Of a stretch of 36,100 bases of DNA, positions 1 to 36,100 are shown piece by piece; the first letter of the stretch is position 1; the number at the start of each line of letters is the position of its first letter. The DNA lies in the IMG/VR virus record IMGVR_UViG_3300048930_001420, positions 1 through 36,100 of that record. One strand, 5' to 3'. The stretch is from a virus. The position numbers and the translations under genes were made by a program. Under the pieces are notes generated by a model. The model saw only the letters and a program-made list of their open reading frames with translations. It was not told the DNA's origin and did not search any database.

Positions 1-351
1 ATGCTCTACCTAATCGCTCGCCCTATGCCGATGCCGGTCGGGAGATTCGAGGTCTCGCTCATCTCTCCCGATTTGCTCCGTCAATTGATCTTGCATGCGC
101 ACGATTCCAAGAGCCTCGACTCGCGGGTTCACTTCGCTTCGACGGTTCAGATCCTATCGAGCCTTACCGGGATCCGTTTCGAGCCAGGTAATGACCAACT
201 CGCCCCGGATCTCGAGAACGGCGATTGCCTAATCGATATTCGCCTGAAGCCTGATACCCCCAAGGGTAGACGCATCACGATCGACGACTTGGACTTTTAC
301 CGGATCGAATACAGCACGGCCGACGAATCACGCCCCATGATGTTTAGATAA
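1..351 (+). CDS. DUF1874 / AcrIII-1-like (STIV B116/YddF family) protein, candidate ring nuclease
   Basis: The 116-residue product resembles the DUF1874 family, which includes STIV B116, Bacillus YddF and the viral ring nuclease AcrIII-1; AcrIII-1 cleaves cyclic tetra-adenylate and disarms type III CRISPR. Visible matches are the short N-terminal strand MLYLIARP, the central segment VHFASTVQILSSLTG (family pattern GH-x-(S/A)-T followed by a leucine-rich helix and a final G), and the C-terminal IRL...KGRRITIDDL (family pattern Rl-eeG-k-lt-eEi). The central His sits one residue away from the family's catalytic His when the flanking motif is aligned, so activity is uncertain. It is the only plus-strand gene at this end and converges on the late operon, overlapping the next stop by 8 bases. 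The ATG is the first base of the window; it fits the family N terminus but the ribosome binding site is outside. Confidence 0.62.
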   Translation: MLYLIARPMPMPVGRFEVSLISPDLLRQLILHAHDSKSLDSRVHFASTVQILSSLTGIRFEPGNDQLAPDLENGDCLIDIRLKPDTPKGRRITIDDLDFYRIEYSTADESRPMMFR

Positions 352-769
352 CTTGCTGCGATCGCCAGAACTCGCGAGCCGCCTCGAGGGAGAGATCCGC
401 CTGGCCGAGCTTGCGATTCACGGCCGACTTGAGCGCATGTTTCCATTCAAACGATAACCCACCCTCGCTTAGCGTTGGTGGGTTTTCTTGTTTCCATGCG
501 AAGTAGAACTTCCTGCAGGAGCAGAACGGCGGGAGCTTCTCCTCCCATGCTTCCAGCTGCGCAATCGTCTGGATCTCGAGAAACAACTCACGCCACAGCC
601 GCGGCCCGAGCTCCTCGATCTTCTCTACAATGGGCTTCACCGGTGGAGGCTCGATCCTTTGGCGAATTGATTCGATGGGCACCGCGAACAGAGGCGCGAT
701 GTCTGCCGGTTGTCTCTCCCCGCGAATCACCTGCAGGAGCGGGTTTATAGACTGAATTGGAGTGTCCAT
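344..769 (-). CDS. Last gene of the late operon; Cys-x-Cys protein, function unknown
   Basis: The product has 141 residues and no signal peptide or membrane segment. Its centre reads PPFCSCRKFYFAWKQENPP and is followed by FEWKHALKSAVNRKLGQ. This Cys-pair/aromatic/NPP/W...VN.KLG pattern recalls the Erv1/Alr-like signature found in some phage proteins, where the end reads HN.VN.KLGKP, but here the cysteines are CxC and the HN is replaced by KSA. A redox or zinc-binding role is therefore only a guess. The start overlaps the preceding gene by 25 bases and the gene is last in the tail-distal block, so it could be a minor virion or host-interaction protein. Confidence 0.6.
   Translation of the reverse strand: MDTPIQSINPLLQVIRGERQPADIAPLFAVPIESIRQRIEPPPVKPIVEKIEELGPRLWRELFLEIQTIAQLEAWEEKLPPFCSCRKFYFAWKQENPPTLSEGGLSFEWKHALKSAVNRKLGQADLSLEAAREFWRSQQVI
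456..490 (+). terminator. Rho-independent terminator for the DUF1874 gene
   Basis: AACCCACC (456-463) and GGTGGGTT (477-484) form a perfect 8-bp stem with a 13-base loop, followed on the plus strand by TTTTCTTGTTT. It lies about 105 bases after the plus-strand stop at 351 and inside the oppositely oriented 141-residue gene, so it can end the plus-strand transcript before it runs into the late operon. Confidence 0.6.
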
Positions 770-1929
770 GTTCCGAGATCCAAAGGAGCAATAACGGGAT
801 CCGGAGAGCTACCGTCCATCAACTCGGAGTCGAACGTCGAGGCCGTTTGGCAATGACGATAGAAACGCTGAAATCCAGAGCCAGGAGCGGGAGTTGGTGT
901 GATCGGATTGCAGTCGCTGTAAGGTGACGGGCCAAGCGTTGCAGCTGGGAAAGCGACGCATGTATTGCCACCGGTGCTTGAACTCGCCTCCCAGGTGACG
1001 AGCCGTTCGATTGCAGGTGGATCAATACTCCCAAAGGATTGTACCCCGCATGTAGTTCCGCAGGCTTCATTCATCGAAGCGACGGCGATCGGAGTCGATG
1101 GTAGTGCATCGAAGTCTTTGCAGAAGCTTTTCGCGAAGGGATAACTCACGCCAAGGTTTGGCGTTTCGGATTCCTGCTCTTCATACCAAGCCATCATCCC
1201 GGCGTTGGGATTCACCCCATCGAACCAATCACCAAAGCAAAGGGGCGCACTATCCGACGGCAAGCATGGATAGGCGACATTGTAGCTCGCGCTCGCATAG
1301 CCTGTTATCCCATCGAAAAGCTCAATATGGCAGCCCGTGTTCGGTCGCCCATCGTTCGTCTTCCACTTCACTAGCTGAGCGACGTTGTGATATCCATAGA
1401 TGGTGAAGGATACGCGAAGCTTGCATACGCCACTTACAAGCACCGGCTGGATCGCTAATCGATACGAGGTCAGCTGAAAGAAGTACCACCAAATCGACAC
1501 CGCTGAGCCGGTCCGAAAAGTCGTGTACGTCCATCGATCGACCGGATCATAACGGCCGCCGGTGATTCCGTCTTGATGCGAGGCGAGCCAGGTCTCCGTT
1601 TGAAGATACCGAAAGTGCTCCCAATAACCCCATTGGTAGTAGGGGCCGTAACCAGGAAGAGCTAAAAGGTTTTGCTGCCAGATCCCACAGCATCCCGCTT
1701 GCGGGGAGAACTGAGCGAGTGGTATCGTCCATTGGCTCCGTAGCGAGTTCGTGATCGAGAACTTGATGTCGTTCCATCGTGGAGCTCGACACTTGCCGGC
1801 GCGATCTCCGCACGGCACGCAAAAGCCGGTTGCCGTTGCGGTGTTGTTGCACCACTGGCATTGATAGCGAGGGCTAAGCGGTGGGGCTGGCGGATCTTCC
1901 GGCCCATCGATGATGATTTCATCAGGCAT
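745..1929 (-). CDS. Distal tail/virion protein with N-terminal zinc-ribbon-like cysteines
   Basis: The 394-residue protein opens with an acidic, proline-rich leader and then CQWCNNTATATGFCVPC, two CxxC pairs that suit a zinc knuckle. The body is rich in Trp, Tyr, Gly and Cys, as in secreted or virion-surface beta-proteins. No family is recognised. It comes after the tape measure and two other unknown genes, where siphoviruses encode distal tail, baseplate and adhesin parts, so a structural tail role is inferred. I chose the ATG at 1929, which overlaps the previous stop, rather than an in-frame GTG two codons upstream. Confidence 0.7.
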   Translation of the reverse strand: MPDEIIIDGPEDPPAPPLSPRYQCQWCNNTATATGFCVPCGDRAGKCRAPRWNDIKFSITNSLRSQWTIPLAQFSPQAGCCGIWQQNLLALPGYGPYYQWGYWEHFRYLQTETWLASHQDGITGGRYDPVDRWTYTTFRTGSAVSIWWYFFQLTSYRLAIQPVLVSGVCKLRVSFTIYGYHNVAQLVKWKTNDGRPNTGCHIELFDGITGYASASYNVAYPCLPSDSAPLCFGDWFDGVNPNAGMMAWYEEQESETPNLGVSYPFAKSFCKDFDALPSTPIAVASMNEACGTTCGVQSFGSIDPPAIERLVTWEASSSTGGNTCVAFPAATLGPSPYSDCNPITPTPAPGSGFQRFYRHCQTASTFDSELMDGSSPDPVIAPLDLGTWTLQFSL

Positions 1930-14984: not shown

Positions 14985-15344
14985 TTAATTACACCTCCAC
15001 AACTTTACGCCGAGTGCCTTACATAAACGGACCACTTCGGCGCGAGTCTTCAGCCACGAACCAACCAAGCCAACTGCGTTCTCTTCTTCGTCCTGTTCGT
15101 TGTAGGATATGACATCTGTTATCCACTCGTCTGGATCCGCTTTATGCAGCGAGAGACGCAAGTCGACGTGTGCTTTCGCAGATGTCTTGTCGTAGTCATC
15201 GATTACGATTGTTGCACATGTGACCTTCTCAGTCTCATCGATCTTGAACCCTACCGACTTGAGCCAGTCGACATCTGGAAACTTGCTGCTAGTCGCAGCT
15301 CGCTTCACATTGTCCTTGATCGACGTTTCAATTGCGGTCGTCAT
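14985..15344 (-). CDS. Hypothetical cassette protein
   Basis: The 119-residue product starts MTTAIETSIKDNVKRAATSS, then has a strand-helix body (KVTCATIVIDDYDKTSAKAH, DLRLSLHKADPDEWITDV) and a C-terminal helix (LKTRAEVVRLCKALGVKLW). No family is recognised. The ATG at 15344 has AAAGGAAA upstream and is preferred to a start 21 bases earlier. Its first 20 coding bases are nearly identical to those of the next gene, which points to a local copying event or a shared translation-initiation element. Confidence 0.65.
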   Translation of the reverse strand: MTTAIETSIKDNVKRAATSSKFPDVDWLKSVGFKIDETEKVTCATIVIDDYDKTSAKAHVDLRLSLHKADPDEWITDVISYNEQDEEENAVGLVGSWLKTRAEVVRLCKALGVKLWRCN

Positions 15345-15380
15345 TTTGTGTTTCCTTTGCGACACTGCCGCTATGACTCG

Positions 15381-16090: not shown

Positions 16091-16326
16091 TTTCGTTTCT
16101 TCTTTTTTGCTTTGCGCTTTTTCGCTGCTGCCGCCTTGGAGGCCATCTCCGCTTGCGCTGCAGCGTCCGGATTACCACGCGGCATATCCGGCGCGTCAAC
16201 TCCCAAGTCGCTCGCAATAAGCCACCTGATGTACTCAGATGGAGTTTTACCGAGCTGGTTCAATCTGTCTTCCATCGGCCCGGCGAGTTCACCGGGCCTG
16301 AATGATAATTTCTCCGGCAGAATCAC
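16087..16326 (-). CDS. Ribbon-helix-helix-like small protein with Lys-rich tail
   Basis: The start is a GTG at 16326 that shares its first G with the TAG stop of the upstream gene (TAGTG). The 79-residue product has PEKLSFRPGELAGPMEDRL followed by NQLGKTPSEYIRWLIASDLG, a strand plus two helices with the SeYiRwLI pattern of CopG/ribbon-helix-helix proteins, then an Ala/Lys tail (KKRKAKKKKRK) that would bind nucleic acid. It is the second gene after the cassette promoter and could be the cassette's own repressor. Confidence 0.62.
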   Translation of the reverse strand: MILPEKLSFRPGELAGPMEDRLNQLGKTPSEYIRWLIASDLGVDAPDMPRGNPDAAAQAEMASKAAAAKKRKAKKKKRK

Positions 16327-16508
16327 TATTCGGCATCCTCTTCGTTTTCTTCCGAATCCCATAGCGTTTCGCCGGATTCATCCTCGACTTGCACGCCGTA
16401 GGATGGTTGGTACTCGTCGTTGATCTCGATTGCTCGTGCAATCGCGTCGGCGAGAGCGCCGGTGAATTCTTCGTTGATCTTGACGGACTTGATCTGGTAG
16501 GTGGTCAT
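16326..16508 (-). CDS. Small acidic hypothetical protein
   Basis: The 60-residue product, MTTYQIKSVKINEEF and then a short helix (GALADAIARAIEINDEY), ends in a very acidic tail (DSEENEEDAE). It is the first gene after the promoter at 16580-16609 and is coupled to the next gene through a TAGTG overlap. Small acidic first genes of accessory cassettes are often modulators, but the sequence gives no specific hint. Confidence 0.55.
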   Translation of the reverse strand: MTTYQIKSVKINEEFTGALADAIARAIEINDEYQPSYGVQVEDESGETLWDSEENEEDAE

Positions 16509-24547: not shown

Positions 24548-25369
24548 ATGGTTCGAAAGTCAAATTCACTTCCGCTCAAGTGGCACGGCGGAAAACAGTA
24601 TCTCGCGGACAAGATTGTTTCGCTTTTTCCAGAGCATACCCACTATGTGGAAGCGTACTTCGGCGGTGGAGCTGTGCTCTTTGCCAAGCCCTGGGAACTG
24701 GTCGATTCTCATTCCGAAGTTGTAAACGACCTCAACGGATCGTTGGCCAACTTTTGGCGTGTACTTGGGGACGAAGTACTCTTTCCCAAGTTTCAGCGAC
24801 TTGCCTCTGCGACGCCTTTCTCGAAGCCACGTTGGGAGGAATCTAAAAGTAGGGTGTCCGAGGACCCGGTGCTTCGCGCGTTAGACTTCTTTGTTCAATA
24901 TCGACAGTCTCGACAGGGACTCGGTCGAGACTTTGCCACAATGTCGCGAGAACGAACACGCAGAGGAATGAACGAACAGGTCTCGTCTTGGTTGTCTGCA
25001 ATCGAGGGCCTAGAGGATGCCCATGCTCGAATCAAGCGTGTCGTTGTTTTGTCAGAGGATGCTGTGACCGTTATTCGAAGAGAAGATTCATGCAGCACAC
25101 TGTTCTACCTCGACCCGCCCTACCTTCACGAAACTCGGACAGCAACTAAATGCTACGAGCACGAATTGGCTACTGAGCAGCACGAGCAGCTCTTGGCATC
25201 CCTCAATAGTATTGAGGGTAAGTTCATCTTGAGTGGATACAGAAGCCCTATGTACGACAGCTTCGCTAAAAAGCAGGGGCTAAGGCGAATCGACATTGAA
25301 ATCGATAACAAAAGCAGCGGAAGCAAAGTTAAGCCAACAAAGATCGAGAGCCTTTGGTTTAACTATTGA
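24548..25369 (+). CDS. Dam-type (D12 class) adenine-N6 DNA methyltransferase, orphan
   Basis: The 273-residue protein has the D12 family layout: PLKWHGGKQYLADKIVSLFP at residues 9-28, the AdoMet-binding EAYFGGGAVLF at 35-45, DLNGSLANFWRVL at 61-73, and the catalytic LDPPY at 188-192, then FILSGYRSPMYD. It transfers methyl from AdoMet to adenine. No restriction enzyme gene is near, so it is a solitary methyltransferase that may protect phage DNA or alter gene control. It is the only plus-strand gene in the middle of the window; AAAGGAG precedes the ATG, and its end overlaps the convergent gene by 11 bases. GATC is the usual Dam target, but specificity cannot be read from the sequence. Confidence 0.9.
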   Translation: MVRKSNSLPLKWHGGKQYLADKIVSLFPEHTHYVEAYFGGGAVLFAKPWELVDSHSEVVNDLNGSLANFWRVLGDEVLFPKFQRLASATPFSKPRWEESKSRVSEDPVLRALDFFVQYRQSRQGLGRDFATMSRERTRRGMNEQVSSWLSAIEGLEDAHARIKRVVVLSEDAVTVIRREDSCSTLFYLDPPYLHETRTATKCYEHELATEQHEQLLASLNSIEGKFILSGYRSPMYDSFAKKQGLRRIDIEIDNKSSGSKVKPTKIESLWFNY

Positions 25370-26120
25370 TCGCTTTTCTCGCGTTCATCAGGGTCTTGAG
25401 CAAAAAGCTGCTCGGAACAGACTTGTTGCCTAGCAGCTTTCTAAGGTAGATGCAAAGCTGTTCGGCTTCTGCTGGGTAAACCAAAAGCTCATCGAGTGTC
25501 TTGCTTTTGTACATTGAAGCGAAGCTATCTTGAAGAAATTCGATGAACGACTCTCTCGTTGCATCGATCCCAAACTGCTGCAGGCTCTTTGCTAAGCTCT
25601 CTGATCGCGTTCGCTTTCTGTAGATACGAGGAAGTGTTGGATCCTTCCTGGCGTTAAACAGTGATCTGAGGATTAGGTGATCGGGGATTTTGTCGCGTCC
25701 AAGCCTGGAGCAGATTCCTTTTTCAGAAAGACGAGATCGAGTGTCTAGGCAGAATCTCATGGCCTCTTTGGGGTTAGTGATCAAGTCATCGACTGTCGTG
25801 TCTGGGTAGCCGTCTTGGAAAGCATCAATCACCTCCACTTGAAAATCACGACTCGAGCAATTGAGCCCAAGTTCAGCCAGTGTAGTGTTGAGGGTCGTTT
25901 TCCTCTTACTCGTTTTTCTTAGCTCGAGCCCGAAGTAATCAATCAATGCCACGAAGTCTTCGAGGCCTAGCCCTGGAGTCTGCCCATCTGCAATTGCATC
26001 CAGTGTTGAAATCGGTAGCCCAACACTCTTAGCGATTCTTGGAAAGTCCTCCCTCGCTTTGTCCAGGAGGATGTGAATTGGGAGCAACACTTGCGAGAGT
26101 TTTTCTTTCGACGAACTCAT
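25359..26120 (-). CDS. Helix-turn-helix protein with two internal repeats
   Basis: The 253-residue protein has an N-terminal helix-turn-helix-like part (ILLDKAREDFPRIAKSVGLP, ISTLDAIADGQTPGLGLEDF) resembling Cro/CI-type domains. The rest is a tandem duplication: DAFQDGYPDTTVDDLITNPKE, AMRFC, PDHLILRSLFNARK in the first copy and DSFASMYKSKTLDELLVYPAE, AEQLC, PSSFLLKTLMNARK in the second. Single-copy versions of this module are, as far as I recall, frequent in planctomycetes and their phages. A regulator is likely. It follows the tRNA and is probably cotranscribed with it. Confidence 0.7.
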   Translation of the reverse strand: MSSSKEKLSQVLLPIHILLDKAREDFPRIAKSVGLPISTLDAIADGQTPGLGLEDFVALIDYFGLELRKTSKRKTTLNTTLAELGLNCSSRDFQVEVIDAFQDGYPDTTVDDLITNPKEAMRFCLDTRSRLSEKGICSRLGRDKIPDHLILRSLFNARKDPTLPRIYRKRTRSESLAKSLQQFGIDATRESFIEFLQDSFASMYKSKTLDELLVYPAEAEQLCIYLRKLLGNKSVPSSFLLKTLMNARKAINS

Positions 26121-26160
26121 CGGTCTAGTTGCCTTTCGGGAAACACGATATAAACTTAAA

Positions 26161-26234
26161 TACCCCCGAGAGGAATTGAACCTCTAACCCAGCCTTCGCA
26201 AAAAGCTTGCTCTATCCAATTGAGCTACGGGGGC
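26161..26234 (-). tRNA. tRNA, anticodon TGC (Ala) by strict position, Arg-like D loop
   Basis: The 74-base minus-strand sequence folds completely: acceptor GCCCCCG/CGGGGGT (first pair G-T), TA, D arm GCTC-AATTGGATA-GAGC, A26, anticodon arm AGCTT-TTTGCGA-AGGCT, variable GGGTT, T arm AGAGG-TTCAATT-CCTCT, discriminator A, no encoded CCA. Counting places the anticodon at TGC. The usual Ala G3-T70 pair is missing (C3-G70) and the D loop with A20 is Arg-like, where a one-base slip would read GCG, so the amino acid is uncertain. Confidence 0.85.
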
Positions 26235-26262
26235 ACAAGGCACGCCAATGCCTCGTGAAAAC

Positions 26263-27478: not shown

Positions 27479-28159
27479 TCAGGACCTTGCTAAAGTATCT
27501 TTGAGCCTCTCCGGCTGCTTTCTGAGATTTTTTAGAATGGCTCCCATCATTTGTGACACTCGGCTTTCGGCAAGCCCCATGATCGTTGCGATCTCGTGCA
27601 TCTTCGCAGCCTTGAACCAATAGAGGTTCATAATGGTCTGCTCGTCGATCGACAAGCTCCTGAAGGCCGAGACGAGTGCGTCGTCTCGATCGAGGCCCGT
27701 CTCTAAGCGTCGTAGCCTCACGCGTTCCAACTCGAGAGCCGAGAGTGGTACTGGATTACATTCTCGAGCTCTTTCTGCGCCCGTATGCTCAAAGAACTCA
27801 TCGTCGTTGACTGGGTGACCGAGCGAATGCTGAATTGCTAGAGAATCCGCCGCGTTCTTCTTAATGCGTTTCCGAGCTGGTCGCTTAAGATGGTCCAGCG
27901 ATCGCAGGCAATCCTGAATCGAAAACTGGATCCTCATCGCGCAGTAGGTGCGAAATGAGGAACTGCTCGGCTCATATGTTTTGATCGCATTCAGCAATCC
28001 TTCACCCGCAGCACTAACGAGCGCATCTCGATCGACTTTACGGTTCAGCTGCTTAAATCGCTTCATTGCGAGCATGCGAGCCATTGGGTAGAAATGCTCG
28101 CAGATCGCAGCCTTGACATCGGGCTCGTGTCGTCGTGACCAATCGTATTCCGGATCCAT
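27479..28159 (-). CDS. RNA polymerase sigma factor, FliA/sigma-28-like
   Basis: The 226-residue protein has region 2 (FYPMARMLAMKRFKQL, DALVSAAGEGLLNAIKTYEP, FRTYCAMRIQFSIQDCLRSL), a region 3 part (RPARKRIKKNAADSLAIQHS, then GHPVNDDEFFEHTG) and region 4 (LSIDEQTIMNLYWFKAAKMH, EIATIMGLAESRVSQMM, LKNLRK at about 170-215). The ESRVSQ signature is that of the FliA/WhiG group. A phage sigma factor at the end of the early operon can redirect host RNA polymerase to late promoters. No FliA-type promoter consensus was found in front of the late genes, so its target sequence may differ. Confidence 0.86.
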   Translation of the reverse strand: MDPEYDWSRRHEPDVKAAICEHFYPMARMLAMKRFKQLNRKVDRDALVSAAGEGLLNAIKTYEPSSSSFRTYCAMRIQFSIQDCLRSLDHLKRPARKRIKKNAADSLAIQHSLGHPVNDDEFFEHTGAERARECNPVPLSALELERVRLRRLETGLDRDDALVSAFRSLSIDEQTIMNLYWFKAAKMHEIATIMGLAESRVSQMMGAILKNLRKQPERLKDTLARS

Positions 28160-31324: not shown

Positions 31325-31699
31325 CTAGACCTTGCTGGTTCCTTCGACACCGCGAGCCAGGCGATCGCGAGTTCTCTTCTGCAACCACATCATCGCCTCT
31401 TGAATCGCGGTTAGAGCAAGAGCGTTTTCGCGGCAAGCGAACTCCCCAGCTTGAAAGCCAAGCAAGCGATCTTCGACGACGGCCAACAATGCCTCATTGC
31501 TGATTCCGTTCACTCCATGCTCCAGAATCGGGCCTTTCTGAAACTGAATGTTGCACAGCTCGATGTCGTCATCGTGACGCACAAACCTCCTAATCTGGTA
31601 TTCGTGGCATGCGTTTCCATGCCCCGGCTCGTCCAGCACGTTGATAAGCAAAGCATCGTTGAGTCCGTTCAGCCTGTGACTTGTAATTTCTCTTCCCAT
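31325..31699 (-). CDS. Tad1-like (Acb2/Tad1 family) cyclic-nucleotide sponge, candidate anti-Thoeris
   Basis: The 124-residue product begins MGREITSHRLNGLNDALLIN, has VLDEPG.G.....YQIRRF, NIQFQKGPILEHGVNGISNE and ends with a helical hairpin: LLGFQAGEFACRENALALTA, IQEAMMWLQKRTRDRLARGV, EGT. With this start the residues F82, N92, R109 and R113 fall exactly at the numbers I recall for the ligand-contacting residues of Tad1, the phage protein that traps the gcADPR-type signal of Thoeris. The family is widespread in phages under Acb2/Tad1-like names. The ATG at 31699 has AGGGG eight bases upstream; a longer frame overlaps the upstream gene. Cytoplasmic sequestration of an immune signal is the inferred role. 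Confidence 0.72.
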   Translation of the reverse strand: MGREITSHRLNGLNDALLINVLDEPGHGNACHEYQIRRFVRHDDDIELCNIQFQKGPILEHGVNGISNEALLAVVEDRLLGFQAGEFACRENALALTAIQEAMMWLQKRTRDRLARGVEGTSKV

Positions 31700-31758
31700 T
31701 TTTAAACCCCTATTAATTGCGATACACTTCGGTGCATCCAGGTATCCATAGCCGTTAC

Positions 31759-32148
31759 TCAGTCCGCACTGACTTGTAATGACAAGCGACAAAGCCCAAG
31801 CTCTTCTGGGTGCTTCTGAGCATCCCGCAACCCTCGCGCATAGCCATCTTCTTCTGCACGTCGAATCTCCTGCTGCATCCGCGATTCCAACTTTCGGAAC
31901 ATTCGCATCCCCTCCGAGCTTTCGTTTTCGATCTCCGCACTCAATCGAAAAACCTCCTCGCGAGTTGCATTCAACTCTAAAACCAGTTGTTGGTACTCAT
32001 GCACGCATTCCGGGGTGCAAAAGTTCTTGTTCTCGTCGAAAAGACACCCGTAAAGATTACTCTCGTCACACGGATCGTCGCATTGATCGCAGACTATTGG
32101 CTCGTCACATGGATTGCCGCTCATGTCTGGATGCTCTTTACTCGCCAT
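31759..32148 (-). CDS. Zinc-finger plus coiled-coil hypothetical protein
   Basis: The first 50 residues of this 129-residue protein hold CDQCDDPCDESNLYGC and FCTPEC, enough for a zinc finger of treble-clef or FCS type. A long helix with heptad character follows (EYQQLVLELNATREEVFRLS, AEIENESSEGMRMFRKLESR). The C terminus includes a Gly-rich RGLRDAQ turn. Function unknown. It ends 60 bases before the Tad1-like start. Confidence 0.65.
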   Translation of the reverse strand: MASKEHPDMSGNPCDEPIVCDQCDDPCDESNLYGCLFDENKNFCTPECVHEYQQLVLELNATREEVFRLSAEIENESSEGMRMFRKLESRMQQEIRRAEEDGYARGLRDAQKHPEELGLCRLSLQVSAD

Positions 32149-35321: not shown

Positions 35322-35742
35322 GATGCGTTGGCGGCGTGAAATCAAACTTCCCTAGAAGATCTTTCCACGGCACATTTGCAGGAGACGCAAAGGCGGTTAC
35401 TTTCACAGGCGAGTAACGGCTCATGTACCAAAGCAGAAGGTGATACTTGAGGGTCAGGCTATCAGAAGCGAGTGGGTGAATCAGTGGCTCGAAGATGATT
35501 CCGTGCCAGCGATTTTCGGTGATGTTCATATAGCCCACCACGCCGTTGTTTCGGCATTCCGTTACGGCTACCGCTTCGGGGACGCAATCCATCAACAACC
35601 TTAGGCGGCGAGCCATCAGAAGCATAAGCTTCCGGGTTTGCCGCGAAGATTCATAGTGCATGCGAATCGCATTGAGACTTACGACATCCGAGCCAGTTGC
35701 GAGCCGAATTAATCCGCCTGGCGGGTCAATTTCAATCGCCAT
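35248..35742 (-). CDS. GNAT-like or unknown protein before the integrase
   Basis: The 164-residue product reads IRLATGSDVVSLNAIRMHYE, a helical basic part (RKLMLLMARRLRLLMDC), VAVTECRNNGVVGYMNITEN, RWHGIIFEPLIHPLASDS, a helix, VKVTAFASPANVPWKDLLGK and FDFTPPTHHGQVEIL. The strand-GYM.i strand, central helix and late strand order resembles an acetyltransferase of the GNAT type, but the Q/R-x-x-G-x-G/A site is not evident. Gene order between the CsrA-like protein and integrase is operonic (11-base overlap upstream, 74 bases downstream). Confidence 0.55.
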   Translation of the reverse strand: MAIEIDPPGGLIRLATGSDVVSLNAIRMHYESSRQTRKLMLLMARRLRLLMDCVPEAVAVTECRNNGVVGYMNITENRWHGIIFEPLIHPLASDSLTLKYHLLLWYMSRYSPVKVTAFASPANVPWKDLLGKFDFTPPTHHGQVEILSFRKTSRMDSEIGDACR

Positions 35743-36100
35743 AACGCGAAGCTCCTTCCGTTTGTAGATCGTTGACTACATCCATAGAAACCATGGCAGT
35801 CTCATCGTTCTGCGTCTTAGCCATCGCGACTAGGCCGGAGACCATGACGATGGAAGCAACATGCTCCACATCGCAGCCCATGAACTTCGCGACATCCGCG
35901 AGCTCTTGATAGCGATCATTAGGAAGAGTCACCGTGATCGATTTCATTTGCGATGGGGTTCGCTTGATACCCCTCTCGCGATCGATTGCCCTTTGAACCT
36001 CTTCGCGATGCACCGTCACATCGCGTGGGGCCTCGACTCCGATCCTCACCTTGTCGCCGCGAATGTCGACGACCGTCACCTCTACCTGGAGAGAGTCCTT
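35732..36100 (-). CDS. CsrA (carbon storage regulator) fused to a ribbon-helix-helix domain, 5' end outside window
   Basis: The frame is open to the window edge. The first visible part reads KDSLQVEVTVVDIRGDKVRI then GVEAPRDVTVHREEVQRAID, which matches CsrA (family: ...vV...rGdqVRlGieAPk.v.VhReEv...i). After RERGIKRTPSQM the protein continues KSITVTLPNDRYQELADVAK, FMGCDVEHVASIVMVSGLVA, a strand and two helices fitting a CopG/Arc-type ribbon-helix-helix, then an acidic tail. Normal CsrA is about 60-75 residues, so this is a two-domain protein that could bind both RNA and DNA. The N-terminal first strand is beyond 36100. Confidence 0.72.
   Translation of the reverse strand, partial: KDSLQVEVTVVDIRGDKVRIGVEAPRDVTVHREEVQRAIDRERGIKRTPSQMKSITVTLPNDRYQELADVAKFMGCDVEHVASIVMVSGLVAMAKTQNDETAMVSMDVVNDLQTEGASRYGD

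Follow-up and report, generated by a model that had tools for sequence, protein, structure and literature searches.

The 116-residue protein encoded on the plus strand at the left edge of the window, by which we mean the whole 36.1-kb stretch of an IMG/VR virus record analysed here, belongs to the DUF1874 superfamily by fold and sequence, and the residues of its ring-nuclease active site have been replaced outright. On the features tested it does not qualify as an AcrIII-1 ring nuclease, and cleavage of cA4 by this protein would be unlikely given the positions that have changed. A sequence-only reading of the same DNA had described a ring-nuclease homologue with a displaced or unconserved histidine; that observation was right in its core and understated the extent of the change. 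Our favoured explanation, which we advance tentatively, is that a protein of DUF1874 fold has lost the ring-nuclease site and may have been kept for a counter-defence role exerted by binding, with a changed ligand.

Assignment of the gene to the DUF1874/AcrIII-1 type, as first proposed, is borne out by sequence comparison and by the structural matches described below. The Pfam family PF08960 (STIV_B116-like, the DUF1874 family of AcrIII-1) matched the protein with an E-value of 8.6e-4 and 19.8 bits, under the curated cut-off of 26, and its only PDB sequence matches were AcrIII-1 (2x4i) and the H47A mutant thereof (6scf), both of them weak (E 0.2–0.5). However, a profile of 120 viral DUF1874 proteins, collected and aligned in this work, gave 13.1 bits, above the shuffle maximum of 7.6 (3,010 scores reported for 5,000 shuffles) and above the 7.2 bits of the best unrelated ORF in six phage genomes; the top pairwise identities to family members were 26–35% over 69–98 residues. 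The profile search thus stands with our own alignment and falls under the threshold with the curated one, and taken together these scores argue that the homology to DUF1874 (AcrIII-1/Crn2) is sound though remote. The variant itself is represented in the scanned collections by two members only, closely related to each other, the second being encoded by a 37.5-kb record (IMGVR_UViG_3300048586_000889, hereafter L002). Viral contigs scanned with the protein and with an alignment of the pair yielded no further member beyond L002, the genome contigs and the phage collection yielded none, and the plasmid collection gave one chance match.

An AlphaFold2 monomer model with 67 homologues in its alignment reached a pLDDT of 88.2 and a pTM of 0.79, and its clear PDB matches were exclusively DUF1874 proteins, namely Marinitoga Csx1-Crn2, AcrIII-1, STIV B116 and AFV3-109. 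The VIA Z-scores against DUF1874 entries spanned 9.1–13.0 (12.6–13.0 for 2x4i, 6scf, 8y7g, 2j85 and 2j6b), with the next unrelated fold at 3.2. Comparison of the predicted structure with AcrIII-1, which the sequence-only reading had suggested, did reveal a resemblance, at a Z of 12.6–12.9 for this homologue-guided model. As such the protein is predicted to have the DUF1874 fold, a match that depends on homology through the homologues guiding the model; when the alignment consisted of just the two members of the variant, no usable model resulted (pLDDT 40). Likeness to the DUF1874 fold was also seen by structure in three BFVD entries, the predicted Erwinia jumbo-phage proteins J7KCD4, A0A1B2IEC3 and A0A1B2IEJ3, and a search by sequence for the BFVD structural neighbours in phage phiEaH2 did not identify them.

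Table 1. Features of the window and of the related record L002 (positions in L002 are those of that record).
Feature	Position	Strand	Evidence or remark
DUF1874 (AcrIII-1/Crn2, STIV_B116-like) homologue, conserved active site absent	1..351	+	PF08960, family profile and shuffles, model, dN/dS
Codons of V43-H44-F45-A46-S47-T48, [VI]-G-H-x-x-T region	127..144	+	Gly and His 120/120 in family; register test
Codon of Asn64, aligned with the invariant Arg66; no NR motif	190..192	+	Arg 120/120 in family
Codons of D85-T86-P87-K88-G89, replacing R-L-P-E-G	253..267	+	Arg 118/120, Glu 113/120 in family
Convergent phage ORF, 141 aa, end of tail gene block	344..769	-	Homologues in G001, G002, G005, G006
Terminator hairpin AACCCACC/GGTGGGTT, then TTCTTG	456..484	+	-19.8 kcal/mol, z -5.5; L002 has the same two arms
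Tad1 (Thoeris anti-defence 1) homologue	31325..31792	-	PF24729 E 2.7e-6, above cut-off; 8kbb E 9.7e-24
L002 tyrosine integrase	1-882		
L002 RadC-like JAB protein	994-1560		PF04002 E 4.1e-39
L002 67-aa ORF, ribbon-helix-helix-like	1618-1821		Weak similarity to regulators such as NikR

Residues 43–48 were correctly reported as V-H-F-A-S-T, and three alignments agree that the histidine is non-canonical, placing His44 in the column of the invariant Gly46 and Phe45 in that of the catalytic His47 of the G-H-x-x-T motif (SIRV1 gp29 numbering), a residue absent from this protein. Gly46 and His47 are present throughout the family and a shifted histidine occurs in none of its 120 members. Some members were collected with patterns containing G-H; 43 match none of these patterns, having been found by others, and all 43 have G-H. 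It had been suggested that the protein could be an active inhibitor in which a local insertion displaces the histidine, and this we reject, since the ungapped register scores better: its summed log-odds are -6.4 versus -11.6 when His44 is set on His47, some 5 bits worse with the gap cost not counted, because the shift pairs Val43 with the Gly and brings Arg42 to a buried Val/Ile position. The displaced histidine is thus not a simple insertion, and Arg66, Arg85 and Glu88 are lost as well.

None of six pocket residues (Asn8, Gly46, His47, Arg66, Arg85 and Glu88 of SIRV1 gp29) is retained by the protein or by the L002 copy, and the substituted positions are identical in the two. Among the family members all six are kept in 100 of the 120, five in 17, four in two and three in one, with no member keeping fewer than three. 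Asn8 has been deleted and the N-terminal pocket loop rebuilt as R-P-M-P; the conserved pocket-lining Arg66 and Arg85 have given way to Asn64 and Asp85; and the conserved Glu88 of R-L-P-E-G, cross-dimer partner of the histidine, has become Lys88, the Pro and Gly of this segment being retained. Conserved positions that serve the fold do remain (Ser43, Thr50, Gly74, Asp75, Pro87 and Gly89), and both copies share an identical, strongly basic lid loop, R81-L-K-P-D-T-P-K-G-R-R91. In the AFV3-109 structure the counterparts of the lost pocket residues are linked in one network across the dimer, with His45 touching Arg64 and bonded to Glu86 from the partner subunit, and with further bonds from Arg64 to the carbonyl of Gly44 and from Arg83 to Ala42 (PMC1796864); mutation of the equivalent histidine in Csx1-Crn2 abolishes cleavage (PMC7293037).

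The window carries tail, head, portal, terminase and integrase genes and begins at the ATG of the DUF1874 gene, whose upstream region lies outside the record and was viewed in L002. There the order is integrase, RadC, ribbon-helix-helix-like ORF and, last, DUF1874, the last gene starting one base after the 67-aa ORF; the sequence AGAAGGA, ahead of its ATG, could plausibly serve as its ribosome site. Two cousin phages, G002 and G005, lack the RadC, ribbon-helix-helix-like and DUF1874 trio and have the integrase immediately next to the tail-end gene, which on gene content marks the trio as an integrase-side accessory cassette of this lineage. The earlier description of a gene that sits alone, as a moron would, therefore reflects the contig edge as far as its isolation is concerned; its accessory character holds for the cassette of three. 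A recurrent association of DUF1874 with RadC or with a ribbon-helix-helix-like protein was seen at no other DUF1874 or RadC locus examined. The proposal that the gene has its own terminator fares similarly: the hairpin downstream of it is real, with a T-rich tail and conservation in L002, but it sits inside the convergent ORF, which overlaps the DUF1874 gene by 8 bases and gave no family match in domain searches. Within the L002 cassette, a strong hairpin, a perfect 10-bp GC stem followed by CTTTT, stands between RadC and the ribbon-helix-helix-like ORF (1574–1597), so that expression of the last two genes may require read-through or a separate promoter.

Among known systems, the most familiar viral ring nuclease is AcrIII-1. 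With this viral cA4 ring nuclease (SIRV1 gp29; 2x4i, 6scf) the protein shares the fold, at the Z-scores given above, the order of secondary structure, the size, the S/T, G-D and P-x-G positions and its origin as a viral gene, whereas it departs from it by His47 to Phe, Gly46 to His, Arg66 to Asn, Arg85 to Asp, Glu88 to Lys and deletion of Asn8, at about 20% identity. The Crn2 domain fold is held in common with Csx1-Crn2 (8y7f, 8y7g) and cellular Crn2 (Z 12.7–13.0), but here it forms a stand-alone phage gene product with no histidine equivalent to H495. The archaeal-virus DUF1874 proteins AFV3-109 (2j6b) and STIV B116 (2j85) have the same fold and, unlike the present protein, keep the network of G-H, Arg and Glu. 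The sponges Tad1, Acb2, Acb4 and Csx15 resemble it in proposed action, in which a phage or CRISPR-linked protein sequesters a nucleotide signal and does not cleave it, and differ in having unrelated folds, Csx15 being of the CARF superfamily.

Under our favoured explanation the protein would form the two-fold cradle dimer of the family and would lack cA4 cleavage through the His47 mechanism; its likeliest action would be by binding, with counter-defence achieved through the sequestering of a non-cA4 nucleotide signal or another polyanionic ligand. A strongly basic lid loop that is identical in two copies fits a phosphate-rich ligand, and the anti-defence role is drawn from the fold, the position in the cassette and the Tad1 gene. 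A bolder form of the idea, which is possible and which we regard as speculative, is that the DUF1874 cradle has been re-targeted, such that a clade of pseudo-ring nucleases with the whole cA4 network replaced sequesters or detects some other immune signal and is carried in one phage alongside Tad1. The histidine-containing motif is invariant in the 120 members examined, and the present clade seems to retain the fold under selection with the active site wholly replaced. It would make it possible to test directly whether a ring nuclease can become a binder with new ligands, as in other nucleotide-signal families, and would caution against calling each DUF1874 match an anti-CRISPR.

We rank a regulatory or nucleic-acid-binding role next, as an unlikely alternative. 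The protein would then act with its ribbon-helix-helix-like neighbour, one base away, on the promoter before RadC, where L002 has a promoter-like TAGACA-16-TATAAT inside a 17-bp inverted repeat, and AFV3-109 does bind double-stranded DNA in vitro at ~5 uM (PMC1796864). That binding is weak and of uncertain relevance, however; the ribbon-helix-helix-like protein could serve the operator by itself, and cyclic nucleotides are the target of those DUF1874 members with an established role. Less likely again is a catalytically dead cA4 sponge, a form of the binding-only sponge offered in the sequence-only reading, that binds cA4 in the dimer cradle, as H47A AcrIII-1 does, and deprives the type III effector of its messenger while leaving the messenger uncut. 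The mutant still binds cA4 at ~25 nM (PMC7213978), some ring-nuclease families include non-enzymatic cA4 spongers, as Csx15 illustrates (PMC13148439), and the basic lid loop would suit such a role. Yet the pocket-building residues are also gone, which makes cA4 doubtful as the ligand: the dimer-bridging Arg85 and Glu88 are reversed in charge, Arg66 and Asn8 are lost, and the rebuilt N-terminal loop counts against it too, given that the S452Y change in Csx1-Crn2, a bulky substitution meant to obstruct the Crn2 pocket, greatly reduced cA4 binding (PMC7293037). The messenger output of type III systems is, moreover, so large that sponging may be fruitless (PMC13148439).

The promoter-like site just mentioned is a strong one, at L002 1003–1047, and with its 14-bp hairpin stem (z -5.3) is likely an operator.

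In other enzyme families active sites have migrated, and activity would hence be possible despite the sequence if His44 stood in for His47 and other residues for Glu88 and the arginines. His44 does adjoin the catalytic column and is identical in both copies of a gene under selection. We nonetheless consider this improbable, and more so than the cA4 sponge, as adjacent residues in a loop tend to face in different directions, the partner residues (Glu, Arg and Gly) have been lost as well, and the shifted register both scores worse and is found nowhere in the family. Last, loss of every active-site residue is what would be expected of a functionless, degenerating relic of an AcrIII-1 gene. The open frame is retained in both phages, though, and comparison of the two genes (92% identical proteins) gives dN 0.054, dS 0.402 and a dN/dS of 0.13, comparable to other genes of the phage (0.01–0.24), which argues that the gene is maintained under purifying selection and leaves the relic scarcely credible.

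The presence of a Tad1-like protein in this phage, noted from the start, is real: the minus-strand ORF at 31325–31792 is homologous in sequence to a Tad1 whose structure has been solved (8kbb) and scores above the cut-off of PF24729 (Acb2_Tad1_hairpin; Table 1), and the phage would thus probably encode at least one nucleotide sponge. Two other ORFs, 14985–15365 and 16326–16508, had been taken as first candidates and were set aside with no Tad1 match. The Tad1 homologue lacks a counterpart in the close relative G001, which has other small genes in the corresponding region, among them a 191-aa ORF (L024 12871–13446) that by eye resembles a nucleoside deoxyribosyltransferase.

Several further genes of the window were observed. 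A D12-class adenine methyltransferase (24548–25369, plus strand; PF02086, E 3e-20) has no match in the close relative, and a tRNA-Ala (TGC) at 26160–26235 on the minus strand lies beside a repressor-like gene (25359–26120), with no tRNA found in G001. The minus strand also encodes a csrA-like gene (35732–36100; PF02599), which the right edge of the window truncates and which is complete in G001, and a phage-encoded sigma-70-like factor (27479–28159) with regions 2 and 4 (PF04542, PF04545).
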